Virus record (IMG/VR): IMGVR_UViG_3300032105_000061
Span: 1 to 36,128 of that record
Source: a virus
Reading direction: 5' to 3' (one strand)
DNA length: 36,128 bases
Part shown: positions 3,750 through 30,251 of the stretch, piece after piece
How positions within the stretch are numbered: position 1 is the stretch's first letter
Layout: the number at the start of each line of letters is the position of its first letter
Position numbers and translations under genes: made by a program
The notes under the pieces: model-generated
Database searches by the model: none
The model's input: only the letters and a program-made list of their open reading frames with translations
What the model was told of the DNA's origin: nothing

Positions 3750-4140
3750 GGATCACGAATGCGTAGCGGTGAAATTTCTTGGCCTGTTCGGATTCCGGAT
3801 ATGATTTCGACACCATCAAACAAGAAACAGGATTGTCGGGCACAGCGATCGAGCCGTACCGATCAAACGTAAACAGTTCGGCATTCTCGACCGATGCCAT
3901 AAACTCAAGCAGTCGCGCCTCGTCCAGGTTACGCGGTTCAATCGATTGCGACTGACAGGAATAATGCTTCTCGCTTCGCAGCAATATCGATTCGACCGAA
4001 CCACTGAGCGATGTATTTTGTCGTACCTGCGCACGTCGCGTCAGTCGCCTTGACAGTAACCGAAAGTCACGAGTGACCAGCTCAAGGTTCGATGTTCCGG
4101 GCGACAATTCTCGCCTCGCTGTGTAAATAAAAATGCTCAT
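3739..4140 (-). CDS. Minor tail protein downstream of tape measure
   Basis: A 133-residue protein. The ATG at 4138-4140 overlaps the tape-measure stop (ATGA), and the stop overlaps the GTG of the hub/fibre gene, so the three genes are translationally coupled. It has no signal peptide or TM segment and is mixed alpha/beta by composition. Position between the tape measure and the tip protein is where lambda-like phages carry distal or minor tail proteins (gpM/gpL zone). I recognise no motif. A role in tail-tip assembly is inferred from position only. Confidence 0.7.
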   Translation of the reverse strand: MSIFIYTARRELSPGTSNLELVTRDFRLLSRRLTRRAQVRQNTSLSGSVESILLRSEKHYSCQSQSIEPRNLDEARLLEFMASVENAELFTFDRYGSIAVPDNPVSCLMVSKSYPESEQAKKFHRYAFVIRES

Positions 4141-5981
4141 CCGTTTACCCCCGCGAGTAATTCTGCATTGCGTCCCTGTCCAGAGACAATAATGACGTCG
4201 CGATTTTCCGATGCCTCGCGCAGCGCATCAGCCAATGCGTCGATAGCATCCGGTGTGATGCCGAACAGATTCGGGAATATCAACTGCACGACTCCTTGCT
4301 GTTGTACTGCCGCGCCGCCAGAGTCAGGGGCAGGGTCATTCGCCGCGTCAGAGCCGCTGAAGTCTCCTGTACCGAATCCTCCACCTCCGCCCAATCCACC
4401 CAGACCACCGCCACCGCCAACACCGCCAACGCCCGTTAGCGCAGTCGCGGCAATCAACCCGGCTTGTGCAGCGCCAAAGGCAATAATGGCAGCCGCAGCA
4501 GGAGGTCCGGCAATCGGACCGAGGTCTGCCAGTGCTTTCATCGAAGCCGCCGCCGTGTTTTGAATCACCCTGGCAATCGCAAGGCCCTTTTCGACAAGGA
4601 ACAGTGCGCGAGCGACGGTTTTATTTTTTCCTACCAACACCTGCAAGATTTGTATACTGGCCTGCGCGGTGGCCTGTCGCAACTGTATTGTTTGTTGCGC
4701 GGCTCGCTCTTCTAATTTCCTTTGCGCATTCAATGCGACTCGTTGTTCACGGGCCTCGTCGGCCAAGATTTTTTTCAGTTCTTTCGCGCGATCAAGCTGC
4801 AATCGAATGAAGTCTTTGTTTGCCTGTTCTTCGTTTTTTATCCGCATAAGGAGGCGCTCAGCGTCGGCTGTCTGCTCTATTTCCTGCGCCTTTATTCGGG
4901 CTTCCTCGGTTTGCGCGGCTTTCATATCCGCGATTTTTTTCTCCGCAGCCAGAATAACTTGCGCGCGGCGATCCTGCTCAACCTGAACTTCAACCAGACG
5001 CGCTTCGGCGGCTTCTTTTTCACGTAGTAGTAATGCCTCCTCCCGTTTTATTATGCCCACGAATGGCGATCCGACGTTCGCTATGATTATTCCCTGCCTC
5101 GCGATTTTGCGAATCTTTTCAAGCGCATCTTCGAGGTCAGCAATCTCGTCCAGTTGCACTTCAACGCGCACGGCAAGTTCGATGCCGCTCAAACCGCGAA
5201 CATCATTTTCCACAAGCCCAAGCTGCTCGAACAGCAGCGCCATCGCAGGAATGAAATCACGACGCAAAGTAACAACAAAATTAGTAAGCCCCTCATTGGC
5301 ATCTTTCATGCCCGGAGCGAATCGCCGCGCCAGATCGAAACTAAGCCCTTTCACTGATTCCTGTAAGTCGGTGAATGCATCGTTGGCTTCCTCGATGCTG
5401 GCCGCATCAACAGCCGATATTGCAGTGCCGAATCGTTTTGTCTTTTCCTCTGCTTCCTCGAAACCCGCAGCTCCTGCCTCCAATGTGCGCAGCAACGCAG
5501 CGCCCCGACCGCCGAACAACTCGTATGCCGCGAGCACTTTTTCAGATTGCGTGTTGAGGCCTTTCATGGCCTCGGCGATCTGCAGGAATTGTTCATCCGG
5601 GCTCGTCCTCGAAAGCGCCACCGCTTCTAAGCCGAGTTTTTTCAGGGTGTCAGTGGCAAGCCCGGTTCCTTCTGCGGCTTCCGCCACGACTCGCGTGACA
5701 TTGATCAGCGACTTTTCGAGAGTCTTCTGCTCGATTCCGGTTTTCGCGGCAACCAATTTGAAGGCAGCAAGTTTTTCGGTGGTAATTCCGAGCAATCGAG
5801 ACTGTTTCGCAAGGGCATCGATTTGTTGCAGGCCCTGACGAGTGAGTAAGGCAATTCCAGCCGCTGCGGCAGCCAGGCCAACAGTGGCGAATCGTCCGAG
5901 TTTTTGATTGACCTGGGTGAACGCGCGCTTCGTGCGATCCTGCGCCGTTAAGACTATTTCTGCTTGGTTGCGTCGAGCCAT
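4137..5981 (-). CDS. Tail tape measure protein
   Basis: A 614-residue protein with the classical tape-measure profile: a basic N terminus, a hydrophobic Ala/Gly-rich segment (about residues 33-47), long helical and coiled-coil stretches rich in Ala, Glu, Lys and Arg (about 70-450), a hydrophobic region near 480-530, then a Gly-rich low-complexity segment (VGGGGGLGGLGGGGGF). It sets tail length. At about 1.5 angstrom per residue it predicts a tail near 90 nm, short for a siphovirus. Its ATG lies inside the +1 extension frame of the tail assembly chaperone, the usual arrangement for frameshifted chaperone genes. It ends ATGA-coupled to the minor tail gene. Confidence 0.9.
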   Translation of the reverse strand: MARRNQAEIVLTAQDRTKRAFTQVNQKLGRFATVGLAAAAAGIALLTRQGLQQIDALAKQSRLLGITTEKLAAFKLVAAKTGIEQKTLEKSLINVTRVVAEAAEGTGLATDTLKKLGLEAVALSRTSPDEQFLQIAEAMKGLNTQSEKVLAAYELFGGRGAALLRTLEAGAAGFEEAEEKTKRFGTAISAVDAASIEEANDAFTDLQESVKGLSFDLARRFAPGMKDANEGLTNFVVTLRRDFIPAMALLFEQLGLVENDVRGLSGIELAVRVEVQLDEIADLEDALEKIRKIARQGIIIANVGSPFVGIIKREEALLLREKEAAEARLVEVQVEQDRRAQVILAAEKKIADMKAAQTEEARIKAQEIEQTADAERLLMRIKNEEQANKDFIRLQLDRAKELKKILADEAREQRVALNAQRKLEERAAQQTIQLRQATAQASIQILQVLVGKNKTVARALFLVEKGLAIARVIQNTAAASMKALADLGPIAGPPAAAAIIAFGAAQAGLIAATALTGVGGVGGGGGLGGLGGGGGFGTGDFSGSDAANDPAPDSGGAAVQQQGVVQLIFPNLFGITPDAIDALADALREASENRDVIIVSGQGRNAELLAGVNG

Positions 5982-8051: not shown

Positions 8052-10094
8052 CTACAGCGTATCGTTCTCGAATGCAAACGACTCCGGATGTCGCACGGCA
8101 AAGTCAGTCGTCCAGAAAGCGATCACTCGCGTATTCCCTCGTGCAGAAAGCGTGAACGGATCAATCAGAACATCCAGACCGCCCCACGCGCCTTGCAGCA
8201 AGTCAGACCAGTTGGCGAAGAAAACATCACCATCGGTAATCTGATTTGACACTTCGGTGCGGTGACCGTTGAGCGTGTTCCCCTGTTCCCAAATGAACTG
8301 TGCCGTGGCCGCGACCTTTTCCGCCGATTTCAAGCTGCCGCGCATTCCGGTATCGACTGCATACGCAAGCGATGCCGTTAATGCATTGGCCTGAGCAACC
8401 ACCGTCTCAAGCGAGATGACCTCGGCAAAAGTCGGAACCGCTGCGGCGAATGTTCCCGGCGCACCGATACCTGCCGTGTTCGCGACTCCAGTTGGCTCAC
8501 CGCCAGCGCCAGTGCCGTACAGCCCTGCTGTGTCAATTGCAATCGCGAGCACGGTAGCGATATCGCTTCGCACCAATGCCTCAATTGCAACACTCGATTG
8601 CAACAGCAACTGCCGTGTGAAAATCGACAGAGCACCGACATTACGCGGCACCAACGTGACCTGATCTAAGGTCTGTGTTGCCTCGGTGATATCCGTTTCG
8701 TCGGTCGCAAGCCAAAAGTGCGTACCACCGCCCGACAGTCTCGGAATGGCAACGTCGCCATCAAGCCCATTGAGCATCGTCACACCGAGCGCAGACAGGA
8801 TCATGCGGTTTCGCAACAGATCGATGAACGACCCGTCAAGCAGGTCCTCAGCAATCATTGACGCTCCCGCGACGGCCTGTGTCAATACACGAGTCTGCAT
8901 CAACTCCTGGATGGCACGAACAGCCCTCCAATCCCGACCCGCATCGTAGTTTTGGTAGAGCAGAATGTCATTCGGGATAATCAGGCCCCGCTGCTTCCGG
9001 TTGCCTTTCTTGGCTTCCTCACTAGCAACCCGGCAAACTTCCAGCTCGAACGATGCTTCTTTGACGAATTCAGGCTGGTCGTGGCCATACGTGCGCGCAC
9101 GAATCAGTCGCAGGAACTGAAATCGCTTGATTTCTTTTCCGGTGAGGCCGATATTTACGTCCTCGTCAGATCGTGTCTCCGGCGTGTAGCGTTGTGCGCC
9201 TGGTAGTGCATCGAGCAGCGCAGCATTGAACTCGGCAAGTGATTTATTTTCGGCAATACACTTCGTTGCCAACTCCATTTGGCCATACTTCGCGCCGACT
9301 TCCGTAATCAATTTGATTCGAAGCTGTTCCGCAGCGCGGACTTCGTCGGCGTTGACCGCTTTCGGAATAGCGGCGACAACAGGAGCAGCAGCGCCGGCAA
9401 CAAACAGCGTACCATCCTCTCGCTTCGCAGTTCCCGCGGCAATCGCAGCGCGATCCTCGTTTGTCTCGGCAACGGGGTTGCCGTTCGTGTCGAATTTCAT
9501 AGTCGTAGTTTCCTTTGCAGGTAAATCAATAGTGATTGTATCGTGATGCCCTTCATCTCCGTTACGCCATTCGCGGGCCTCCCGACCCACTCCGACGCCG
9601 ATATCAGCGGGCATCGACACCAGCGAGATTTCGAACGGTTCCCAATCGGTTGCCCGATAAACGTCTGGTTCGTCGTCGCTGCTTTCTTCGAGTTTCATTC
9701 GGTGAATTTGATAGCCCACGCTAACAGCCTTCCGAATGCCGTCCTCGATATCCTGCAAAATCGCGTCACGGCCGGCCCCCTGACCAAACCGCACTACCGC
9801 GCGTCCAACACGGTCACTATCGATCTTCGCAGACTGAACTGTTCCGATATGTTCTCGGCCATCATGGTTTAAAAGCAGTGGTCCGGTTTCGCGCAACCGT
9901 TTCATCCGGACAGACTCTTTGCCATGATCTAAAATTTCTTCACCAAACCATCGCGTCACAGGTTCTTCACTCGAAAACGCGAGGTTCACGGTCCTCGCAT
10001 CCATATCGACGCTTTCCCGATCAAAGAACGCCACTCGCCGAAGCGTCGTTGTACGGATTTTTCGATCAGTTTTCTGTTTCACCTTGTCAGGCAT
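8052..10094 (-). CDS. Fused prohead protease and HK97-type major capsid protein
   Basis: A 680-residue fusion. Residues ~15-165 form an S78/U35-type prohead protease with the His in LLLNHDG (H77), the Ser in RKAVSVGYQI (S125) and the Glu in EPFEISLVSMPAD (E155), a plausible catalytic set. Residues ~170-300 are an Ala/Glu-rich linker of the kind used as scaffold (delta) domain. Residues ~310-680 are an HK97-fold capsid subunit, with an IIPNDILL N-arm boundary and typical strands to the end. The protease would be expected to cut itself free after assembly. The neighbours are the portal upstream and head-tail genes downstream. Confidence 0.9.
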   Translation of the reverse strand: MPDKVKQKTDRKIRTTTLRRVAFFDRESVDMDARTVNLAFSSEEPVTRWFGEEILDHGKESVRMKRLRETGPLLLNHDGREHIGTVQSAKIDSDRVGRAVVRFGQGAGRDAILQDIEDGIRKAVSVGYQIHRMKLEESSDDEPDVYRATDWEPFEISLVSMPADIGVGVGREAREWRNGDEGHHDTITIDLPAKETTTMKFDTNGNPVAETNEDRAAIAAGTAKREDGTLFVAGAAAPVVAAIPKAVNADEVRAAEQLRIKLITEVGAKYGQMELATKCIAENKSLAEFNAALLDALPGAQRYTPETRSDEDVNIGLTGKEIKRFQFLRLIRARTYGHDQPEFVKEASFELEVCRVASEEAKKGNRKQRGLIIPNDILLYQNYDAGRDWRAVRAIQELMQTRVLTQAVAGASMIAEDLLDGSFIDLLRNRMILSALGVTMLNGLDGDVAIPRLSGGGTHFWLATDETDITEATQTLDQVTLVPRNVGALSIFTRQLLLQSSVAIEALVRSDIATVLAIAIDTAGLYGTGAGGEPTGVANTAGIGAPGTFAAAVPTFAEVISLETVVAQANALTASLAYAVDTGMRGSLKSAEKVAATAQFIWEQGNTLNGHRTEVSNQITDGDVFFANWSDLLQGAWGGLDVLIDPFTLSARGNTRVIAFWTTDFAVRHPESFAFENDTL

Positions 10095-11678: not shown

Positions 11679-12228
11679 TGCTGAACCTCGCACGGACGTT
11701 GGCGTGTGATTTCCCGCCCGACTTTCTGCGGGCCTTTTGTCGTTCGTCGCGTACCTCTACACGCAATTGCCCCCGCCATTCGTTCAACTCATCGATTGAA
11801 TACCTCGACAATGCCCGACCATTCAGCGAGTAGCTGGTCTGGTCCTTCGTCGCCTTGCCTTTCAGCAACGCCTCGATGGCCGCCAATGCGATTGCAGCGT
11901 AACTGCGCCGATCCACTGCGACTGTGTCGGCAGACAAGTCCGGGTCCACATCGAGTATGCCGCTTTCGAGCGTGAACGTGCTTGTGCCATCAGCGACTTT
12001 TTTAGTCCAGTCGTAGTGTCCTTCGTTGAGCGAGGTCGTATCGATAGTGATGCGATGATCATCAACAACGGCAGCGTGTGTGCTGGCGAACTGCCCGTCT
12101 TTACTGGTAAAGCTGTAGGTCACGACCCAAGATGCGCTCGCAGGGAACTCGTCGAGCGTTTCATCCCATGTAATCGTATCTCCGATGGTGATTCGGCGGG
12201 GTAACTCGACAATCTCGTGTCCGGGCAT
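11665..12228 (-). CDS. Head-tail connector, gpW-like C-terminal domain with added N-terminal domain
   Basis: A 187-residue protein. The C-terminal part (about 105-160) has the helix-strand pattern of gpW-like connectors: YAAIALAAIEALL, then the strand SYSLNGRALSRYSIDEL, then a basic helix. The N-terminal ~95 residues are a beta-rich domain, not present in the 68-residue lambda gpW, that looks Ig-like. The start overlaps the terL stop (TAATG). In lambda the gene order terL, W, B is the same. The N-terminal extension may be a capsid accessory domain; that is inference. Confidence 0.7.
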   Translation of the reverse strand: MPGHEIVELPRRITIGDTITWDETLDEFPASASWVVTYSFTSKDGQFASTHAAVVDDHRITIDTTSLNEGHYDWTKKVADGTSTFTLESGILDVDPDLSADTVAVDRRSYAAIALAAIEALLKGKATKDQTSYSLNGRALSRYSIDELNEWRGQLRVEVRDERQKARRKSGGKSHANVRARFSSAIP

Positions 12229-14141
12229 TAGCTCAAGCCTCCAACAAAGCCAGAGCGACGCCTGCGTTTTTTGCGTCGCTTCGTTTCCAGTTTTTCATCA
12301 GGTTCCGCTTTCGCTTCCTCCGGTGGCTCGGATTCTAGCCTTTTTTGCAACGCACTCCAAACAGGATTAAGAATTGCAAGCACGGCAAATTGATAAACAC
12401 GAATGTCCAGCGGTTCATTCGCAATGCCCGGAGGTTTCCGCCACACGACTTTCGGGAACCCTTTTGTGTAAACGGTAAGTGCCTTTTCCGCAGTCAGCCC
12501 TGCAAAAAACGCCTCGGTGTAGTCCATATTGAAATGGCAGTAGCCCGGTCCCGGCCTTCGCAGTTGGAGCCTCGCGTAGATACTCGATTTCGCCTGATCG
12601 GTCCCGACCGTGTACAAGTCAACTGGCATTCCGGGGATCGTCGTCTTTTTCTTGGTCGGTGGCGATGCAATTGGTACTCCCTCTCCGCCCCGACCTTTCA
12701 TAGCCCACACCCGACGCAATGACCTTTCCGTGCAAAATCGATACACGGTACTGGTTCGGTGTGATGAATCAATCCCGGTCGCAGCTATTTTGAGAATGTG
12801 TCCGGACTGATGCTTGTAGGTCACCTCCAAACGCTCCGCAAGTTCGGTCCACACATCGTCTGATTCCGTGTCGCCCATTATTTTCCAGTGGTCGATTCCC
12901 CACCATTCCTCGCCCCGCCCGAAGCCAGCGACTTCCCCCTCGATCCAGTTTTTCTGTATATCGATTCCCGCGATCAGCAGCAGAACATCCTTCGGCACGA
13001 CCCGCTCGCCATCATCATCGACCGGATATCGCTCTCTGCGATGAAATAATTTGGTGCTCGACACCGTTTCCCCTGATTCTTCCCAACTCTCCGCAAGGAC
13101 CGTGTTCACGAACGTTTGCAACTTGAGTGGATTTTCTTTTGCCGCGTAAAACGCCTCGACAATTTCATCCATCGTTGACCACGGCGAATAAATTTCCCAA
13201 ATGGTGAACGAGCGATGGCCGGCAGCACCTTTCTTATTCGTCGCAATCCAACCGCCGCCGTCTGCGTCCTCGGCTCGCGCAACATTTTTCCGCTTCTGCG
13301 CTTCGTTCCAATGTGCCTTGCACCCGATGCACTCGTAATACGGATCGACCCGCTTATCGTCCTTTTTGAATTTCACCTGCTTCCAGACAAGCTCCTGACA
13401 GTGCCCGCACTTGTGGCACGGCACGAAGTATTTTTGCATGTCACCAGCCTTGAAGCGGGCCTCGATTCGGCTCAATCCTTTAATCGTCGGAGTCGATGTA
13501 TCGATGCGCTTCTTGTTGTAAAACGTCTGCGTTCGTTTGAATGCCAATTGCTCCGGATCGCCCTCTTCGCCAGCACTGTACGGGAATCGATCAACCTCGT
13601 CGCAGAGCACAACCCGGATCGGTCGCGAACTCAGCGATGCAGGACTATTCGCGCCACTGATCGTAACGTGTCCGCCCGGAAATGATTTGTGCAGGACGGT
13701 GTTCTCTTTTTTTTTCGATCCCGACTGCGCGACCTTCGTGTCGAGCCCGCTATCGCGAATCATCGGGTCCAATCGGTCCTTCGAATACGCCTGTCCGATT
13801 TCCTTTGTCGGAAACACAATCATCAGCGGGCAGGGATCCTGATCGATGTGGTAGCCAAGCACGTTGTTTATAATTTCAGTCTTACCAACCTGCGACGAAG
13901 TCATGAAAGTCACGTCAGCAGATTCCTCGTCGCAACAAGCATCCATCATGCCGCGTTGGTACGGCGCCCGACTATTCGACCAGCTACCCGGCTCTGCGCT
14001 GCTTTCGCTTGACAGTTTTCGGTTTTGTTCGGCCCACTGGCTTATCGTCAAGTCGGGCGGTGGTGCCAGATAGGAACTGCTCAAGGTTGCCAAAATGCTT
14101 TGCGGGAGGTTGGTACTGAGATAATTCTGCCAAACATTCAT
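12228..14141 (-). CDS. terL: Terminase large subunit (GpA family)
   Basis: A packaging ATPase and nuclease of the lambda gpA/GpA family. It shows ISQWAEQNRKL before the ATPase domain, a Walker A-like SSQVGKTE, Walker B VVLCDEVDRF, and a zinc-finger-like insertion with CHKCGHC and CIGC between the ATPase and nuclease parts. I start it at ATG 14139-14141, which gives the same distance to the WAEQN motif as in lambda gpA; ATG 14187-14189 is the alternative. Both starts lie inside the terS gene, so about 158 nt or more code in two frames. A run of nine A (13707-13715) lies in frame. The GpA family usually packages cos-type ends. Confidence 0.9.
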   Translation of the reverse strand: MNVWQNYLSTNLPQSILATLSSSYLAPPPDLTISQWAEQNRKLSSESSAEPGSWSNSRAPYQRGMMDACCDEESADVTFMTSSQVGKTEIINNVLGYHIDQDPCPLMIVFPTKEIGQAYSKDRLDPMIRDSGLDTKVAQSGSKKKENTVLHKSFPGGHVTISGANSPASLSSRPIRVVLCDEVDRFPYSAGEEGDPEQLAFKRTQTFYNKKRIDTSTPTIKGLSRIEARFKAGDMQKYFVPCHKCGHCQELVWKQVKFKKDDKRVDPYYECIGCKAHWNEAQKRKNVARAEDADGGGWIATNKKGAAGHRSFTIWEIYSPWSTMDEIVEAFYAAKENPLKLQTFVNTVLAESWEESGETVSSTKLFHRRERYPVDDDGERVVPKDVLLLIAGIDIQKNWIEGEVAGFGRGEEWWGIDHWKIMGDTESDDVWTELAERLEVTYKHQSGHILKIAATGIDSSHRTSTVYRFCTERSLRRVWAMKGRGGEGVPIASPPTKKKTTIPGMPVDLYTVGTDQAKSSIYARLQLRRPGPGYCHFNMDYTEAFFAGLTAEKALTVYTKGFPKVVWRKPPGIANEPLDIRVYQFAVLAILNPVWSALQKRLESEPPEEAKAEPDEKLETKRRKKRRRRSGFVGGLS

Positions 14142-14574
14142 GTACCGCCGATTGTAAGGTGGACTGGCATTTGCGGAAGCTGTTTTCATGTTGGACTAAC
14201 GGCGCAGTTTTTTTCGGCAGATTCAGAAGTTTAGCGCGAATAGCGCCGGTCATGTGGTTCCAACTGTAGGCAACGATATCGACCGGGATTAAATCACCCG
14301 CGAGTGTCGCCGCTTCCATGATCGATTTATCGGCATCGGCTCGCATTTTTTGTGTCCTGGCGTCGCCGTAGTCGGTATCTGCTGTGACTTGCGTTCCGTC
14401 GCGCTGCGCCTTTAGCGATTCGATGTAGCCCATCAACGACTCGATAAAGCGATATCGTCCGTGCCCCTCTTTGAAAATGGTTCCATTAGCCGCAAGTTTT
14501 TGAATATAGCGCTCACTGACGCCGAAAATGTGCGCCAGCACCTTGCCGGTTACGTTTCTGTCAGGACCCGTCAT
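13984..14574 (-). CDS. terS: Terminase small subunit (Nu1-like)
   Basis: A 196-residue protein with an N-terminal winged-helix of the Nu1 type (GKVLAHIFGVSERYIQKLAA) that would bind the packaging site. It continues with a central charged helix (TQKMRADADKSIMEAA), an LIPVDIV motif as in other Nu1-like proteins, and a basic C-terminal tail for contact with TerL. The ATG directly follows the TAA of the glycosyltransferase gene. Its last 158 nt or more overlap the terL start in another frame. Confidence 0.85.
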   Translation of the reverse strand: MTGPDRNVTGKVLAHIFGVSERYIQKLAANGTIFKEGHGRYRFIESLMGYIESLKAQRDGTQVTADTDYGDARTQKMRADADKSIMEAATLAGDLIPVDIVAYSWNHMTGAIRAKLLNLPKKTAPLVQHENSFRKCQSTLQSAVHECLAELSQYQPPAKHFGNLEQFLSGTTARLDDKPVGRTKPKTVKRKQRRAG

Positions 14575-15321
14575 TTATACACCAGTAATCGGCACGCGCA
14601 CGACCGGGTTGATGTCCCAATTGGTGCGCTTTTTCTGGTTCACCTGACCGCCTTGCGTATCGATTCGAACGATATCGCTACCCCACTTTTTTTGCAGAAG
14701 GGCGAACTGCTTGCGCTCGCGTTCCATTGTCCGGTAAGTCGCGCACCCGCCGACATTCGTGTGCTGGCCGCAGACGTAATGGTACATATTGAACCGCAGA
14801 GTGCGCCGATATTTGTTCAGCACCTGCAAACTCAAATCGTAGTCTTCCTTCAACGGCAGCGATTCGTCGTAGCGCAAATCCATGTTCGTGAATCCCTGCA
14901 CCGGACCCAGGACGACCGCGCGAAAAGCGAGTGGCGTGTACTCTCGGTAGGCTCCTTTGTCCGGTAGCAGATTCATGCCCCACATACGCGCACCGAGTCC
15001 TCGCGCAAGAATGAATGCGTGTTCGATAAACTCCATCGCCTCGTCGCTGTCGAGTTTCAAATTCTTCTGTTGGCTCCACCGGCCAAAGCGACGAATATCA
15101 TCGTCGAGAAGCAGAACGGGGTTGAAGTTTTCGAGTATGTAATTGCGTACACGGCAGACGTTGCCCTGCACGTTATTCGGCACGGCAATAACTCGCCTTC
15201 CTGCGCGCTCGTAGGCGCGCTTTTCAGACTGTGCAACAACGTAGGTGCAGGCGGGAAGGTAATCCTGAGTGGTTGATGTCCCGGCGCGACGGTAGGACGG
15301 TGACAGTATTTCAATTTTCAT
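14575..15321 (-). CDS. TET-associated-type glycosyltransferase (TAGT-like, GT-A fold)
   Basis: A protein of about 248 residues started at ATG 15319-15321, overlapping the upstream gene by 11 nt. The N terminus KIEILSPSYRRAG, the VAQSEKRAYE strand-helix, VPNNVQGNVCRVRNYIL and a VLLLDDDI metal-binding triplet match the GT-A glycosyltransferases described beside TET/JBP oxygenases in phages (Iyer, Aravind and colleagues). A second acidic motif, DESLPLKEDYDLSLQ, is the likely catalytic region. Family members attach sugars to hydroxymethylated bases in phage DNA. No TET/JBP or hydroxymethylase is visible here, so the acceptor is unknown. Its place next to terS suggests a link between modification and packaging. 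Confidence 0.75.
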   Translation of the reverse strand: MKIEILSPSYRRAGTSTTQDYLPACTYVVAQSEKRAYERAGRRVIAVPNNVQGNVCRVRNYILENFNPVLLLDDDIRRFGRWSQQKNLKLDSDEAMEFIEHAFILARGLGARMWGMNLLPDKGAYREYTPLAFRAVVLGPVQGFTNMDLRYDESLPLKEDYDLSLQVLNKYRRTLRFNMYHYVCGQHTNVGGCATYRTMERERKQFALLQKKWGSDIVRIDTQGGQVNQKKRTNWDINPVVRVPITGV

Positions 15322-15604
15322 CTTCGTCCGGTTCGAGCCAGTCGATTCCCGGCACAGCATCGTCCTCTACATCACGCGTCGCAATTTCTGGATCATGGTG
15401 CTGCACAGTTTCCGCAACCGGAGGAGCCACGTAACGCAAAAATCTCTTGCGCTTGACAGCCTCATCCGCGCCATCCGTGATATCGACATACTCCGTGTCC
15501 TTATCGTAACCGCCGATATAGATTTCGCTTCGGCCATCTGCGAACTGCTTGTGCAGATTTCCTTTGGCGTCCGTGTATTCATTATCGCTTTTTTTTACTG
15601 ACAT
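15311..15604 (-). CDS. Small acidic hypothetical protein upstream of the glycosyltransferase
   Basis: A 97-residue protein started at ATG 15602-15604, inside the last codons of the ParB-domain gene. It begins MSVKKSDNEYTDAKGNLHKQ and ends in a strongly acidic tail (DWLEPDEDEN). The start lies on a run of eight A that the upstream gene reads in another frame (+1/-2 relation), so slippage could also fuse the two. No known motif. Tight coupling on both sides suggests that it works with the ParB-domain and glycosyltransferase proteins. Confidence 0.65.
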   Translation of the reverse strand: MSVKKSDNEYTDAKGNLHKQFADGRSEIYIGGYDKDTEYVDITDGADEAVKRKRFLRYVAPPVAETVQHHDPEIATRDVEDDAVPGIDWLEPDEDEN

Positions 15605-16217
15605 TTTTCGTAACCCTCCGCAGGTACCTGGCACCATCGACAACCCGACCGATGCCCTTGCTCCACGGCTTGCCATTGCACCGCTTACTGTAAACCGACT
15701 TCAGCCTGAAGTGTGTCCGAGCACTAACCCAGTCAACATCATTGTCGAAATATAGCACAACGTAATTCCGTGACTCTAAAAGTTCCTCGCTGAACACGAC
15801 CTTGCCAACGACCGGCACCGTGTCCTCGACCGCATCGAGCAAGTCGTTCAGCTCGTCGTCGGTGAATGCAGTCGATTTCCTTTCCTTTGGATTCAACGCA
15901 AGCAGTTCTTCGGTCAGTTCAATTTCCAGCCAGAAGCTATTTTCGTTGGTGCGGTTGTCAGCGATCCGGTACGCGCGAATCTGTTTCTTTGTCAGATGGT
16001 CGCAATCCATCACCGGCACTTTGGTCAATCCGAGAAGCAACGCCGACGAGTGCCTGGTATGTCCGACAACGATCACTTTGTTTTTGTCTACGACAATTGG
16101 CTGGTTAAATCCGAAATCCCTGATGCTCTGCGCAACGGCTTCGATGGCCTTCGAATTGTCGCGTGGGTTTTTGTTGTACGGCGTCAGCGACTTCGGCGAT
16201 AGCATTTTAATTCTCAT
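15582..16217 (-). CDS. ParB/sulfiredoxin-fold domain protein
   Basis: A 211-residue protein. Residues 1-100 carry the ParB N-terminal signature: PYNKNPRD (13-20), a QPIVVDKNKVIVVGHTRHSSAL core (about 39-60) and AYRIADNRT (82-90). In phages this fold often lies next to or fused to DNA-modifying enzymes. The C-terminal half (about 125-211) has the strand NYVVLYFDNDVDW and a basic tail, and I do not recognise it; there is no HTH as in chromosomal ParB. The ATG overlaps the upstream stop (ATGA). The role may be nucleotide hydrolysis or nuclease activity; position suggests a link to the glycosyltransferase. Confidence 0.8.
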   Translation of the reverse strand: MRIKMLSPKSLTPYNKNPRDNSKAIEAVAQSIRDFGFNQPIVVDKNKVIVVGHTRHSSALLLGLTKVPVMDCDHLTKKQIRAYRIADNRTNENSFWLEIELTEELLALNPKERKSTAFTDDELNDLLDAVEDTVPVVGKVVFSEELLESRNYVVLYFDNDVDWVSARTHFRLKSVYSKRCNGKPWSKGIGRVVDGARYLRRVTKNVSKKKR

Positions 16218-16396
16218 GGCGGGTCATCCATCCAATCGAGCATTTCCTGCTGACTTCCCCAATCGTCCTGAAAGGTTGCATACTTCGGGCAGTCGGGGTC
16301 CATATTCGCGATGTTTTGTTTATCGTCATCCATAAGAAGCACCATAATCGGCTGATCGTCACTGCTAAACCATTTCGCGCCGACCTTAATTCGCAT
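16214..16396 (-). CDS. Small acidic hypothetical protein
   Basis: A 60-residue protein starting MRIKVGAKWFSSDDQP, with a hydrophobic strand PIMVLLMDDDK and a Trp/Asp/Met-rich acidic C terminus. It is coupled by ATGA to the ParB-domain gene and overlaps the upstream gene by 11 nt. The strand plus acidic tail looks like a small globular protein or inhibitor; no family is recognised. Confidence 0.55.
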   Translation of the reverse strand: MRIKVGAKWFSSDDQPIMVLLMDDDKQNIANMDPDCPKYATFQDDWGSQQEMLDWMDDPP

Positions 16397-16580
16397 CGGC
16401 TTTTCTCCATCGTCTGAACATCAACTGCACACGGCCACAAAGCCATGCTGTCCAATACCAGCGGTGCTCGTGCCTGACGTAATCCGAACAGCAGCAGACT
16501 AAGCGAATGTGCATTTTTTCCAATTTCTTCTGCCCCCATTTCAGGCGCGGAAACCGCTTTGCTCTGAATACCTGACTCAT
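16386..16580 (-). CDS. Small basic hypothetical protein
   Basis: A 64-residue, very basic protein rich in Arg, Lys, Trp and Cys (a CCC triplet near residues 29-31). The ATG at 16578-16580 overlaps the methyltransferase stop (ATGA). Overlap with the next gene is 11 nt. The charge suggests nucleic acid binding, but no motif is recognised. Confidence 0.5.
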   Translation of the reverse strand: MSQVFRAKRFPRLKWGQKKLEKMHIRLVCCCSDYVRHEHRWYWTAWLCGRVQLMFRRWRKADAN

Positions 16581-17320
16581 GTTGCCCTCGAATAGACCAT
16601 CGGCGGGATGCCGAGGCCACGCACTTTGACTTTTTCGAATCCCTGAGCTGCCATGAATCGGTTGAACTCTAATTTCGTGTAACAGGTATGAGCAGAGTTC
16701 TTGTCCGATTTCCCGAACGGTGCATACACGATCACCAGCCGGAAATTCCGAATCCAGCCATCGAGCCAGCTTTCAAGGTCATGGATGTGTTCGAAAACGT
16801 CCGAACTGTACAGCCAGTCCACAGGTCCGAAATGACCGTGAGCCAATTCTTTCGTCGTCTTCGACAGATTGACAATTGTTAGCCTGACCATCGCAAGGGC
16901 GCGCATTTTCTCGATCATCTGCAATGAGTTTTTATTGATTTCCGCCAGATAAGCGCAAGCGAATCCTAATCGCGCCAGCGCAACGCCATCGGTCCCGATC
17001 CCTGATCCCACTTCGCAGAACGTATTCATGCCAAGTTGTTTTGCAATCGTCCCTGCGTGGATCACCCGACGCAATCTCTGCCCGTTGCGCTCCTGATGCC
17101 ATGCCGCGACTTCCTCTGTGACCAACAACGAGTCGCGATAAAAAAGGTTGTAGTCATCCTCTGTCTTCGGCGAGCAAACATCCCATTCAGCATTAAGCAA
17201 TTGTTCTGCCTCCGGCCGGGGCCGATAGCCGAACAGAATCTTAAAGGCAACGCCGGCATTCAGATACAGGTAGCGAATCAATTCGGCATCGAGCCGGCCG
17301 CGTTCGAAATTAACTTGCAT
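16577..17320 (-). CDS. Class I SAM-dependent methyltransferase
   Basis: A 247-residue protein with the Rossmann SAM-binding motif I EVGSGIGTDGVALA (about residues 103-116), an acidic end of strand 2 (LAEIN) and a SSDVFEHIHDLESWL motif IV/V typical of UbiG/Methyltransf_11-type small-molecule or sugar methyltransferases. It lacks the DPPY and PC motifs of DNA base methylases. Start taken at ATG 17318-17320 (a TTG precedes). In this neighbourhood it might methylate a sugar or nucleotide intermediate; that is inference. It overlaps the upstream gene by 11 nt. Confidence 0.78.
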   Translation of the reverse strand: MQVNFERGRLDAELIRYLYLNAGVAFKILFGYRPRPEAEQLLNAEWDVCSPKTEDDYNLFYRDSLLVTEEVAAWHQERNGQRLRRVIHAGTIAKQLGMNTFCEVGSGIGTDGVALARLGFACAYLAEINKNSLQMIEKMRALAMVRLTIVNLSKTTKELAHGHFGPVDWLYSSDVFEHIHDLESWLDGWIRNFRLVIVYAPFGKSDKNSAHTCYTKLEFNRFMAAQGFEKVKVRGLGIPPMVYSRAT

Positions 17321-17525
17321 CAATCACGTCCGAATACTTGGGCCAATACGGACGCCTTTTCCGCAACATCAGATATCGCTTTTTGAAATCTCGTCGGCAC
17401 ATAAACTTGAATCGAAAGGCGGAGGTAGCATCGCAATCGATTGTTCCATCTTCATTGGTCACATACCAACGCCACCACGTAACATTTCGAAAGTAGACAC
17501 CCGAGCGAAAGTAGGTAACTTTCAT
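17310..17525 (-). CDS. Small aromatic-rich hypothetical protein
   Basis: A 71-residue protein rich in Trp, Tyr, Phe and Arg (YFRNVTWWRWYVTNEDG at the N terminus, a basic RRDFKKRYLMLRKRR segment later). The start overlaps the upstream stop (ATGA) and the end overlaps the methyltransferase start. No family is recognised; the pattern suggests a small beta-barrel or nucleic-acid-binding fold. Confidence 0.6.
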   Translation of the reverse strand: MKVTYFRSGVYFRNVTWWRWYVTNEDGTIDCDATSAFRFKFMCRRDFKKRYLMLRKRRPYWPKYSDVIDAS

Positions 17526-23924: not shown

Positions 23925-24133
23925 GGCCGCGTCTGTTCGGCAAGCGCAGCAAATATCTTGTGAGTGTCTTCGTCATTGAAACTCGACGCCCAGCTCGCCT
24001 CTCTGTTCACGGACTCCGAACCATCGACAACGACGCAGAGATATTTGAAGTTGCCACTCAACAGGCTATTCGCAGCAGTAGCGAAGTGATCGATGTCGGC
24101 AGCGTGCCTGTCGTTAGTGTGCAGAATTTTCAC
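23921..24133 (-). CDS. Small hypothetical protein
   Basis: A 70-residue acidic protein: MKILHTNDRHAADIDHFATA, then YLCVVVDGSESVNREASWAS, and DEDTHKIFAALAE. It is ATGA-coupled both to the Ref-like nuclease and to the next gene. Conserved-looking HAADID could be an Asp/His metal site; this is not established. Confidence 0.55.
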   Translation of the reverse strand: MKILHTNDRHAADIDHFATAANSLLSGNFKYLCVVVDGSESVNREASWASSFNDEDTHKIFAALAEQTRP

Positions 24134-24573
24134 GGTTTTTCCTCATTCACTGTTTTTCCAAAAAGATAACAATTGCAGCGCGTACCGCCAAGCGAAATCT
24201 CACAGCCGGTGTAATGGGTTTTCTGTTCTCCAATTGTTCGGGCCTCAAAAGCAGCAACATACTTGTTCATCAGAGAAAGCAATTCAGCATCCGAACCGAA
24301 CTGTTTGCGAAATGCCTTCTTGTGAAGTTTCCGCGATGGCCCGAAGGCTTTTCGCATGGCCCTGGCGTTGGTCCCGGTCAGACATTCGCCCATGTGGTGC
24401 CACGGACATTCCGCCGTCACGTCACTGTGACCGATTCGATATCCTTTGAGCAGATGATTCGCCTGTGCAGCAATGTATCGAGCGAATTTCATACGACAAC
24501 AAATGCACCCGACCTCGCGAGTGATGATATCGAAGCGGCGTTGTTCGGCCTTAGTTGGCGATTTTCCGTGCAC
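24130..24573 (-). CDS. Ref-type HNH nuclease
   Basis: About 147 residues if started at GTG 24571-24573 (upstream AAGGA). It has CICC (near 22-25) after a basic N terminus, QANHLLKGYRIGHSDVTAECPWHH with the HNH-type histidines, and AFGPSRKLHKKAFRKQFGSD, which matches the Ref family of phage P1 and relatives (HNH nucleases that act with RecA). The C terminus adds a GGTRCNCYLFG segment with two Cys. In this operon with RecT and exonuclease it is likely part of recombination. The start is uncertain: overlap with the upstream gene is 23 nt. Confidence 0.8.
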   Translation of the reverse strand: MHGKSPTKAEQRRFDIITREVGCICCRMKFARYIAAQANHLLKGYRIGHSDVTAECPWHHMGECLTGTNARAMRKAFGPSRKLHKKAFRKQFGSDAELLSLMNKYVAAFEARTIGEQKTHYTGCEISLGGTRCNCYLFGKTVNEEKP

Positions 24574-24754
24574 GTTTTTTCGGTTCCTTAGGCATTCGAT
24601 CAGCCAGGATAGTCGAAATAGCAATTCGGTACAGACAGGTTTGCCGCCTGAGTTCTCCCATCAACGGACTGTCATCGGGATGGTAGTCAAGGTATTTTCC
24701 AAACGCCATAGCCCTGCGGTACTTTTCCTCAAGCAATCGAGTTGAAGCACTCAC
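24551..24754 (-). CDS. Small helical hypothetical protein
   Basis: A 67-residue basic protein started at GTG 24752-24754, in a GTGA overlap with the upstream stop. Sequence MSASTRLLEEKYRRAMAFGK, then DDSPLMGELRRQTCLYRIA, and a Lys/Arg-rich tail. It may bind nucleic acid. The function is unknown. Confidence 0.58.
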   Translation of the reverse strand: MSASTRLLEEKYRRAMAFGKYLDYHPDDSPLMGELRRQTCLYRIAISTILADRMPKEPKKRARKIAN

Positions 24755-28698: not shown

Positions 28699-29379
28699 CT
28701 ACTCCTCGAAAAAACCCGGCACTCCGGATTGAACTTGCGGAACAGTCGGGCGAGTGCCAGCCCGAAAGTGCGCCAGGAAACGATTGAGTTCTGCATACAG
28801 AAAATTCGAATATATTTTATCGATCGGCACCCGGACGATGGCAATGCGATTCGCAAGTATCGGGTAGTCCGGACAGTAGGAAACGTAATCGGCCTGATCG
28901 TAGCCGGCGCACATTGCCTGACAGTAAACCTGGTCTTTGTCTTCCGGCAGCATTCCGACCTTTAGTGCGTATTCGTGCTTTGCGTGATCAACCCGAACCT
29001 TGCCCTCTCCGGATCGATCTTTCAGCAGCCAATCCGGACTGCACCCGAACTCATCAATGGTCGGATGCACGACAAAGCCAGGACGGTCGATTTTTATTTT
29101 GTACCCATATTCCTGCTGCCGCATTATTTCATACCGGGCGATAAGCCAATCCTCGCGCTCTTTGCCAAGTCGAATCGATGCGGGAGTTTTATAGCCGAAG
29201 CCCTCCATATACTTGTCGAGCGCCGCTTCCCGTTGCTCGACTTCCCATTGCATGATGTTCAACAATCCAGTTTGTGCCGCCAGGGTTCCATGAGCGACAG
29301 TTTTAAGCCGCGTTGACGTAACCCGCCCAAGCCGTAGCCCGAACCACTCACGGCTTTGCTGCCCGACGTAATGCCTCAT
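28699..29379 (-). CDS. YqaJ/lambda-type exonuclease
   Basis: A 226-residue alkaline exonuclease of the YqaJ/lambda family: the start RHYVGQQSREWFGLRLGRVT, a GCSPDWLL motif with the metal-binding Asp, then EGKVRVDHAKH with the E-x-K pair, and a QVYCQAMCAGYDQADYVSYC segment for the final helices. It resects double-stranded ends for the RecT annealase encoded just upstream (ATGA overlap). Together they form a Red-type system. Confidence 0.85.
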   Translation of the reverse strand: MRHYVGQQSREWFGLRLGRVTSTRLKTVAHGTLAAQTGLLNIMQWEVEQREAALDKYMEGFGYKTPASIRLGKEREDWLIARYEIMRQQEYGYKIKIDRPGFVVHPTIDEFGCSPDWLLKDRSGEGKVRVDHAKHEYALKVGMLPEDKDQVYCQAMCAGYDQADYVSYCPDYPILANRIAIVRVPIDKIYSNFLYAELNRFLAHFRAGTRPTVPQVQSGVPGFFEE

Positions 29380-30251
29380 ACCGGCAACACCAGTCGAACG
29401 GCCTCGTCAAAGCACTTTTCAGGAAGCAACGACAACGACACGATGCCGAATGCCCGACAAACGGTTTCGGTTGCAATGCTGTGTTCCGAACAAAGGTCGG
29501 TAAGTTGGCTGGTCTGCCGTGAGCTGATAATTCGAACGGCCTCGCCTTCGAACGTCACAGGCTCGATCACATCGAGAACCTCCATTGCTCTCTGCATCTT
29601 GCCTTCGGTGTCGTGGGGCCAGTGTTTCCATGCTCTGCGGATCACGGCCTTTTTCTGCATTTCACCCCGGAACCTTGACCGCCAAACTGCGCCGCCCGGT
29701 TTCTTGCCAGGGCGTGATTTAGTCGCGGCTTCCTCGACCGCTTCAAGGTCTTCGCGATCCATCACTTCGGTGTGCTGCTTTCCATTCCTGAAGCTGGCTA
29801 TGCAGTAAGCGTGAGTAACCTCGCCACGATCCTTTCGTGCTTCCTCGTGCATTATGTACCGACCATCCGGACCTGATCCGACGCTAAAAACCGGATCATT
29901 CTCGCAAACGAGCGCCGCCTGTATCGCGATCACCACGCCTGTTCCATAGGCCATCTGCTCCATGCCGCGATAGCCGATGCAGAGCGTCGCCTTGTCCTTG
30001 TAAGGGATTAGGTACAACAACGACTGCGACGGTGCCAGAGTCAATCCTGTGTACGCCACATCGAGCAAGGCATTGTGAATCGACTGCGGTGTACACCTCC
30101 GCAGGTCCTCGCTGCCCTGAATGATCTGCAACGCGAAATTCCGCTGTGCGGCAAACTTCAACGTCTTGTCGGGTCGGCCCGCATTGAATCTCGCGCTCAA
30201 TGATCGGTCGGTCAGGATTTCTTTGTATTCAGCCAATGCGTGTGTGGTCAT
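29376..30251 (-). CDS. recT: RecT-family single-strand annealing protein
   Basis: A 291-residue RecT-family protein: AQRNFALQIIQGSEDLRRC, the signature NALLDVAYTGLTLAPSQSLLYLIPYKDKATLCIGYRGMEQM split over the core, and MQKKAVIRRAWKHWP near the end of the domain. It anneals complementary single strands produced by the exonuclease encoded next to it. It is ATGA-coupled on both sides. The C-terminal ~55 residues look flexible. Substrate and mechanism are from the family. Confidence 0.92.
   Translation of the reverse strand: MTTHALAEYKEILTDRSLSARFNAGRPDKTLKFAAQRNFALQIIQGSEDLRRCTPQSIHNALLDVAYTGLTLAPSQSLLYLIPYKDKATLCIGYRGMEQMAYGTGVVIAIQAALVCENDPVFSVGSGPDGRYIMHEEARKDRGEVTHAYCIASFRNGKQHTEVMDREDLEAVEEAATKSRPGKKPGGAVWRSRFRGEMQKKAVIRRAWKHWPHDTEGKMQRAMEVLDVIEPVTFEGEAVRIISSRQTSQLTDLCSEHSIATETVCRAFGIVSLSLLPEKCFDEAVRLVLPV

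Follow-up and report, generated by a model that had tools for sequence, protein, structure and literature searches.

A ParB-like protein and a TAGT-family glycosyltransferase encoded as a conserved pair before the terminase: a candidate DNA glycosylation module of tailed phages

The biochemically known TAGT glycosyltransferase, from phage T6, acts on DNA, on glucosylated 5-hmC (PMC13216743). A 2026 study found solitary TAGT homologues in 288 of the 753 phage genomes encoding glycosyltransferase homologues and suggested that they may be novel transferases (PMC13216743). What such an enzyme modifies, and with which partner, is the question raised by a TAGT gene in IMG/VR record IMGVR_UViG_3300032105_000061, from a virus of bacteria, of which positions 1 to 36,128 were analyzed (the window). 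All of the genes named in the original prediction for positions 14575 to 17320 are real and were found in the ORF list and the sequence, on the minus strand, where it had placed them (Table 1). From the methyltransferase (MTase) gene through terS, the genes abut or overlap; the TAGT and ParB genes lie within the late operon, abutting terS, and the genes of the packaging/late module follow in the order terS-terL-portal-capsid. That prediction had combined the MTase, three small ORFs, the ParB gene, and the TAGT gene into one modification cassette.

Table 1. Features of the locus in window coordinates
Feature	Position	Strand	Basis or remark
Terminase large subunit, start of packaging/late module	12228..14189	-	Syntenic with TerL in L002-L006
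Terminase small subunit (terS)	13984..14574	-	phrog_57, E 1e-25; ATG directly after TAGT stop codon
TAGT-family GT-A glycosyltransferase, 248 aa	14575..15321	-	PF20691, PHROG 842, AlphaFold2 model, invariant columns
Small acidic ORF, 97 aa, between ParB and TAGT	15311..15604	-	Clade-specific, accessory
ParB/Srx-fold protein, 211 aa; N domain ~ residues 1-131	15582..16217	-	PF02195, phrog_620, model
ParB C-terminal domain, ~70 residues (about residues 140-211)	15582..15800	-	Motif NYVVLxFDNDxDW...SKRxNGKPWSKGIGRV
Small ORF, 60 aa, unconserved, outside unit	16214..16396	-	10-residue match only in IMG/VR
Small ORF, 64 aa, mobile accessory, outside unit	16386..16580	-	Different place in L004
Class I SAM-methyltransferase-like protein (MTase)	16577..17323	-	Sub-threshold Methyltransf_12/23

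The predicted TAGT identity of the gene directly before terS was borne out by profile searches, which gave 37.8 bits against Pfam TAGT PF20691 (cut-off, 27.5) and an E value of 2.9e-18 against PHROG 842 (beta-glucosyl-HMC-alpha-glucosyltransferase). Its motifs DDD (residues 73-75, nucleotides 15105-15097) and KED (residues 158-160, nucleotides 14850-14842) are invariant across 43 relatives, and by this alignment the nucleotide-sugar and catalytic motifs are intact. The AlphaFold2 model (pLDDT 89.6) has GT-A structural matches with Z scores of up to 13.8, and the closest PDB folds include protein- and polysaccharide-directed enzymes, as expected for a GT-A model. Sequence searches found no relative of solved structure, and NCBIfam gave no match. 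When the TAGT tree was read by partner, the TET-type clade was separate (support 99/96, with long branches flagged), and the ParB type and the T6 type were not separated, their branches being long.

The neighboring protein was likewise confirmed as ParB/Srx, with 32.3 bits against ParB_N PF02195 (cut-off, 26.3) and an E value of 8e-41 against phrog_620. Its model matches CTP/CDP-bound ParB, Noc, and KorB with Z scores of up to 13.1, and its box II GxxR motif reads GHTR (residues 52-55). The arginine of this nucleotide motif is absent in some family members, so NTP control may not be general. The score for a canonical chromosome-partition ParB was below threshold (TIGR00180, 38.3 bits; cut-off, 58.45), and no parA stood out in the ORF list of the window. 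No methylase domain is fused to the window ParB: similarity to the DNA methyltransferase family phrog_498 is confined to the ParB part (residues 1-133), and PADLOC matched the protein to a methylase model over the same domain. The C-terminal domain is, by sequence comparison, a marker of TET-less ParB-TAGT pairs; it is more conserved than both the ParB N domain and TAGT, and the ParBs sampled from TET-type and methylase systems did not show it. Model confidence for this domain is low to moderate, and no listed structural match covers it.

The two genes proved to be linked in both directions of search. ParB lies directly upstream of TAGT in 75 of 80 IMG/VR TAGT loci, the other five starting within about 350 nt of a contig edge, and in all nine bacterial-genome loci, which belong to Planctomycetota, Verrucomicrobiota, Bacteroidota, Spirochaetota, Lentisphaerota, and Bacillota; in both sets the genes usually overlap or abut. 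Conversely, a reverse scan with the ParB C-terminal domain found TAGT downstream in all of the best 80 loci (L180, whose TAGT ORF was called long, was counted by hand), and no fusion of the two in one protein was seen among the reverse-scan loci. The ParB-TAGT loci represent 23 clusters under 60% TAGT identity, the linkage holds over different terminase families, and the pair sits before the terminase in most loci; no plasmid copies were found. ParB and TAGT are the only proteins broadly common to these very different phages, with no third protein found that is broadly shared, and on gene content the unit conserved across hosts is the pair. ParB-TAGT distances correlated with r values of 0.46-0.59 over 52 pairs; in the same 28 loci, TAGT-TerL reached 0.44 versus 0.48-0.54 for ParB-TAGT. 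A special co-evolution of the two proteins was thus not retained, the signal not being clearly above that of TAGT-TerL.

The wider surroundings do not travel with the pair. The MTase matched Methyltransf_12 with an E value of 0.001 (20 bits against a threshold of 30) and carries the SAM-motif-like sequence EVGSGIG. It is kept only in the three closest IMG/VR relatives (L002-L004), with variable spacers; a scan with the MTase alone found one relative, and none was found in 50,697 phage records. Given this narrow distribution, it was rejected as part of the ParB-TAGT unit, and it is probably just a neighbor. None of the three small ORFs matched a Pfam or PHROG family above threshold. The one between ParB and TAGT is present only in the local clade (L002-L004 and L006). 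The other two, proposed as candidate new parts, were rejected: the 60-aa ORF has only its short match, and relatives of the 64-aa ORF, shifted in L004, sit in contigs where no ParB or TAGT was found. Conservation of gene order in other phages, a check proposed with the original prediction, extends beyond the nearest relatives for the ParB-TAGT pair and not for the MTase or the small ORFs. A single modification pathway comprising MTase, ParB, TAGT, and three small proteins would suit the tight packing of the window genes and the retention of the MTase in L002-L004, but it is very improbable given that the MTase and small ORFs are missing outside the nearest relatives and have variable spacers. 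We also give scarcely any weight to ParB and TAGT being independent accessory genes that share a pre-terminase hotspot and do not act together. The slot before terS does often hold accessory genes, methylases and Mom-like genes included, but chance cohabitation is at odds with a linkage that held in either search direction at every sampled locus where it could be tested, across 23 divergent TAGT clusters and different terminase families, and with a ParB C-terminal domain seen only with TET-less TAGT.

By analogy with T6, the window TAGT may transfer sugar to modified DNA bases. In agreement with the original prediction, no oxygenase or hydroxymethylase is visible: within the 36-kb window record, TET/JBP (PF12851) gave no match even at E<=1, the dCMP hydroxymethylase/thymidylate-synthase fold (PF00303) gave none while the MW202897 control was positive, and neither TGT (DpdA) nor C5-methylase was found. 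The IMG/VR record is a linear fragment whose left edge leaves a tail gene open, so absence from this single record is little proof, and the absence of acceptor enzymes rests instead on comparative data. TET was found in none of 18 long viral contigs, Javan291, or KaiHaiDragon, in searches that detected every TET-type control phage, and no hidden TET, hydroxymethylase, TGT (DpdA), or C5-methylase was found in the ParB-TAGT phages. Nine host genomes yielded no host-encoded TET, in a search whose controls gave no match either. Acadian gp2, annotated as a queuine tRNA-ribosyltransferase, was dismissed as a DpdA link, since the TGT profile gave nothing and Tet_JBP matched with an E value of 1.4e-4.

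The suggestion that an unknown protein of this locus performs the first step is narrowed: with no third protein broadly shared, that step would have to be supplied by ParB, TAGT, the host, or enzymes differing among phages. It is possible, if somewhat doubtful, that the acceptor is a base hydroxylated or otherwise modified by host or unrecognized phage enzymes, ParB-TAGT supplying only the second step, in the manner of T-even and TET phages. The characterized TAGT uses such a substrate, TAGT adjoins a pyrimidine hydroxymethylase in MW202897 and TET in S-CBWM1, and every phage has many small ORFs without assigned function; on the other hand, the TET searches in phages and hosts, the lack of a third common protein, and hosts from at least six bacterial phyla all argue against it. 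An unlikely reading, taken as a whole, is that ParB and TAGT, a system widespread in uncultivated phages, would need no further enzyme and would attach sugar to a standard, unmodified base of DNA (or to its backbone), the acceptor being exposed or activated by the C-terminal domain of ParB. To our knowledge, this chemistry is not known for nucleotide-sugar glycosyltransferases. Since neither phage nor host shows an enzyme that would produce the acceptor, the target could also be something other than DNA, such as a protein (ParB itself, terminase, capsid, or a host protein) or a surface polymer, ParB being a substrate or regulator. Structural neighbors that include protein GalNAc-transferases and the wall-teichoic-acid enzymes TarS/TarP are compatible with this, but we regard it as quite improbable, since the nearest sequence family of known function (PHROG 842, PF20691) acts on DNA, and since it would otherwise be hard to see why TAGT is linked to ParB, whose DNA-binding fold is coupled time and again with DNA modifiers.

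Altogether, we consider it probable that ParB and TAGT form a two-gene module by which tailed phages glycosylate DNA, with ParB recruiting TAGT. In this module, the ParB/Srx domain would bind DNA, with NTPs probably exerting control as they do for other ParB folds, and the special C-terminal domain would hold or activate the TAGT enzyme, bringing it to phage DNA. The sugar that TAGT would then place on that DNA would come from a nucleotide-sugar made by the host or, in some cases, by the phage. The location of both genes at the head of the packaging operon suggests that the marking of DNA would come late, either ahead of packaging or while it proceeds. The sugar mark would most likely serve resistance to host restriction.

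Through the pairing with ParB, solitary TAGTs, or at least some of them, acquire a partner and a narrow hypothesis, testable now by nucleoside analysis because cultured lytic Microbacterium phages, among them Quhwah, KaiHaiDragon, and Paschalis, carry a diverged version of the pair. Should plain DNA be the substrate of the pair, sugar-modified DNA would be reached by a new route, which might also serve as a tool to mark or protect DNA; otherwise, finding the missing acceptor step would uncover a base-modifying enzyme not known so far.

Among known systems, the T2/T6 beta-glucosyl-HMC-alpha-glucosyltransferase resembles the window TAGT in family (PF20691, PHROG 842), GT-A fold, and phage origin; the T6 enzyme scores 37.2 bits against PF20691, the DD and ED motifs align, and the identity between the two is 24%. 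However, the T6 TAGT gene adjoins gene 42, and its acceptor arises through gene 42 and alpha-GT, whereas the window has ParB as partner and no hydroxymethylase. Mycobacterium phage Acadian and Arthrobacter phage Altadena share ParB and TAGT with the window in ParB-TET-TAGT-PIG-L operons, that of Acadian occupying the same slot shortly before terS-terL. These operons differ from the window pair in encoding a TET/JBP-like oxygenase and a PIG-L deacetylase as well, in having ParBs that lack the C-terminal domain, and in having TAGTs that group in a clade apart. ParB domains related to that of the window are found together with DNA modifiers (methylases, TET-TAGT-deacetylase, and a Mom/GNAT-like protein), often in the pre-terminase slot. 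Streptococcus Javan492 and Latilactobacillus TMW 1.2272 P1 have a related ParB N domain, encoded between replication and terminase genes, with a methylase fused to ParB as effector in place of the separate glycosyltransferase of the window. In Pasteurella phage Pmp13, a related ParB without the C-terminal domain precedes its effector shortly upstream of terS, as in the window, but that effector is an ABC-ATPase/GNAT-like protein with weak Mom similarity. ParB domains with NTP binding have been published near CmoX (PMC12783734) and in phage methyltransferase fusions (PMC12704722), the latter in a 2025 ParB-fold survey that mentions phage methylase fusions and no glycosyltransferase. The CmoX 5-carboxymethylcytosine systems likewise have a ParBc domain protein as the neighbor of a DNA hypermodification enzyme (PMC12783734); they carry out carboxymethylation and amide ligation, whereas glycosylation is predicted for the window pair.

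The tightly packed minus-strand row at 14575-17323 comprises a methyltransferase-like gene, two small ORFs, ParB, another small ORF and the glycosyltransferase, and continues into terS and terL. The assignment of the glycosyltransferase to the TAGT family (PF20691), part of the original prediction, was supported by Pfam (37.8 bits versus a cut-off of 27.5), and the protein matches PHROG 842, the family of the T2/T6 beta-glucosyl-HMC-alpha-glucosyltransferase (E 2.9e-18). The ParB protein lies above the PF02195 cut-off, and the methyltransferase-like protein gave only a sub-threshold family match. The 36-kb IMG/VR record is a fragment whose left end cuts through a tail gene; its replication and recombination part encodes a RecA-dependent nuclease family member (PF16786, 52 bits), RecT and a RecE-like exonuclease.

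Coordinates of features in the window and in comparison loci
Feature	Record	Position (nt)	Strand
terL	window	12228-14189	-
terS	window	13984-14574	-
TAGT	window	14575-15321	-
ParB	window	15582-16217	-
ParB C-terminal domain	window	15582-15800	-
Methyltransferase-like	window	16577-17323	-
PF16786 nuclease	window	24130-24624	
RecE-like exonuclease	window	28699-29379	
RecT	window	29376-30251	
Javan291_0034 (ParB)	L007, Streptococcus prophage Javan291	8411-9001	
gp87 (UDP-glucose dehydrogenase-like)	L009, Microbacterium phage KaiHaiDragon	20588-21370	
Metallophosphoesterase-like	L045, comparison locus	4118-5032	
ParB and ABC-ATPase/GNAT	L094, Pasteurella phage Pmp13	5528-6628	
gp2	L106, Mycobacterium phage Acadian	813-1691	

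A comparison of every ORF in the window, in Javan291, in nine long viral contigs and in five bacterial-genome loci left TAGT and ParB as the sole broadly shared proteins; the terminase was not broadly shared in this set. The TAGT and ParB of locus L097, which escaped the comparison through ORF tiling, are both present at that locus. The five closest relatives keep the order ParB, 97-aa ORF (where the contig extends that far), TAGT, TerS, TerL, portal and capsid; three retain the methyltransferase, with differing spacers, and none retains the place of the remaining two small ORFs. A wider IMG/VR scan, whose query alignment included Javan291, yielded 335 relatives, and ParB lay upstream of TAGT in 75 of the best 80; in the remaining five, TAGT starts within about 350 nt of a contig edge. 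The two genes mostly overlap or abut, with gaps up to about 870 nt in a minority, and the pair is present in all 23 clusters formed under 60% TAGT identity. Among 84,980 bacterial and archaeal genomes, nine TAGT loci were found (Planctomycetota, Verrucomicrobiota, Bacteroidota, Spirochaetota, Lentisphaerota and Bacillota). ParB is the immediate upstream neighbor in every one of them, and terminase genes are recognizable downstream in most. Distance correlations gave no sign of ParB-TAGT co-evolution beyond the TAGT-terminase level, and the TAGT tree did not resolve the ParB type from the T6 type.

The modeled ParB N domain has the ParB/Srx fold, near CTP- or CDP-bound ParB, Noc and KorB. Mean identity is highest in the C-terminal domain of about 70 residues (52%), followed by TAGT (48%) and the ParB domain (31%). 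An independent scan with the C-terminal domain alone gave 306 loci, and TAGT lay downstream in all of the best 80 (79 by script and one with an overlong TAGT ORF call). Since both scans rank the closest relatives first, remote exceptions may exist. The domain occurs in Javan291, and weakly in KaiHaiDragon; it was not found in the sampled ParBs of the TET type (Acadian, Altadena), of methylase fusions and of Pmp13. On this distribution, the domain marks ParB-TAGT pairs that lack TET. Javan291_0034, labeled a DNA modification methylase, is actually a ParB protein of 196 aa that has no methylase domain and is followed by TAGT.

The TAGT AlphaFold2 model has a GT-A fold (mean pLDDT 89.6), and the enzyme is probably active because its DDD and KED motifs are invariant across 43 relatives. 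A second, tandem TAGT copy in three comparison loci (L025, L086 and L096) suggests that some phages may add two sugars, the divergent copy in L086 and L096 perhaps serving for the second. In 56 Microbacterium phage records, ParB, a small ORF and TAGT are accompanied in most by a UDP-glucose dehydrogenase-like gene, consistent with a nucleotide-sugar donor. In KaiHaiDragon gp87, the central domain of this protein is recognized and the NAD-binding domain scores weakly; the gene adjoins TAGT in most Microbacterium phages. Seven loci (L045 and six similar) encode a metallophosphoesterase-like protein in the interval that separates TAGT from the terminase genes.

The window record and 18 long viral contigs had no match to profiles for TET/JBP, thymidylate synthase/hydroxymethylase, TGT and C5-methylase, and neither did Javan291, a complete prophage, or KaiHaiDragon, a complete phage. 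The controls were positive: TET adjoins TAGT in Synechococcus phage S-CBWM1, Acadian and Altadena, hydroxymethylase adjoins it in MW202897, and the TGT and C5-methylase searches matched in named control genomes. Phage TET and hydroxymethylase proteins, searched against six-frame translations of all loci, had no match there, while they found each other in control phages; TET was absent from the nine host genomes in a search that did not match its own controls. Acadian gp2, labeled a queuine tRNA-ribosyltransferase, matches Pfam Tet_JBP (E 1.4e-4) and aligns with the Altadena Tet-like protein; it is likely a misannotated TET/JBP oxygenase.

We infer DNA as the target, recruitment by ParB and protection: late in infection, ParB would use its DNA-binding NTP-switch domain and C-terminal domain to recruit TAGT to the phage DNA, and the sugar added there by TAGT would protect the packaged DNA. 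The acceptor would come from an unrecognized or host step, or else the pair would act on unmodified DNA, which, if true, would be new chemistry. No description of the ParB-TAGT pairing was found in the open literature, a search outside which a 2013 computational survey of base-modification systems lies; that survey may show ParB near TET/TAGT genes, which would not cover the TET-less pair yet would lower the claim to novelty. The T4/TAGT study mentions no ParB (PMC13216743), and the ParB survey no glycosyltransferase (PMC12704722).

DNA is the likely target of the window TAGT because the characterized T6 member modifies DNA (PMC13216743) and because effectors that modify DNA are repeatedly found next to related ParB domains, often in the same pre-terminase slot. 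ParBc proteins occur near CmoX cytosine carboxymethylases (PMC12783734), and ParB-methyltransferase fusions are described, as are diverse NTP-binding ParB folds (PMC12704722). Streptococcus prophage Javan492 and Latilactobacillus phage TMW 1.2272 P1 join a related ParB with a methylase. In Pmp13, shortly before terS, a related ParB precedes an ABC-ATPase/GNAT protein that weakly resembles Mom; the two are a candidate for another ParB-linked DNA modification module. Acadian and Altadena combine a related ParB with TET-TAGT-PIG-L, in Acadian just before terS.
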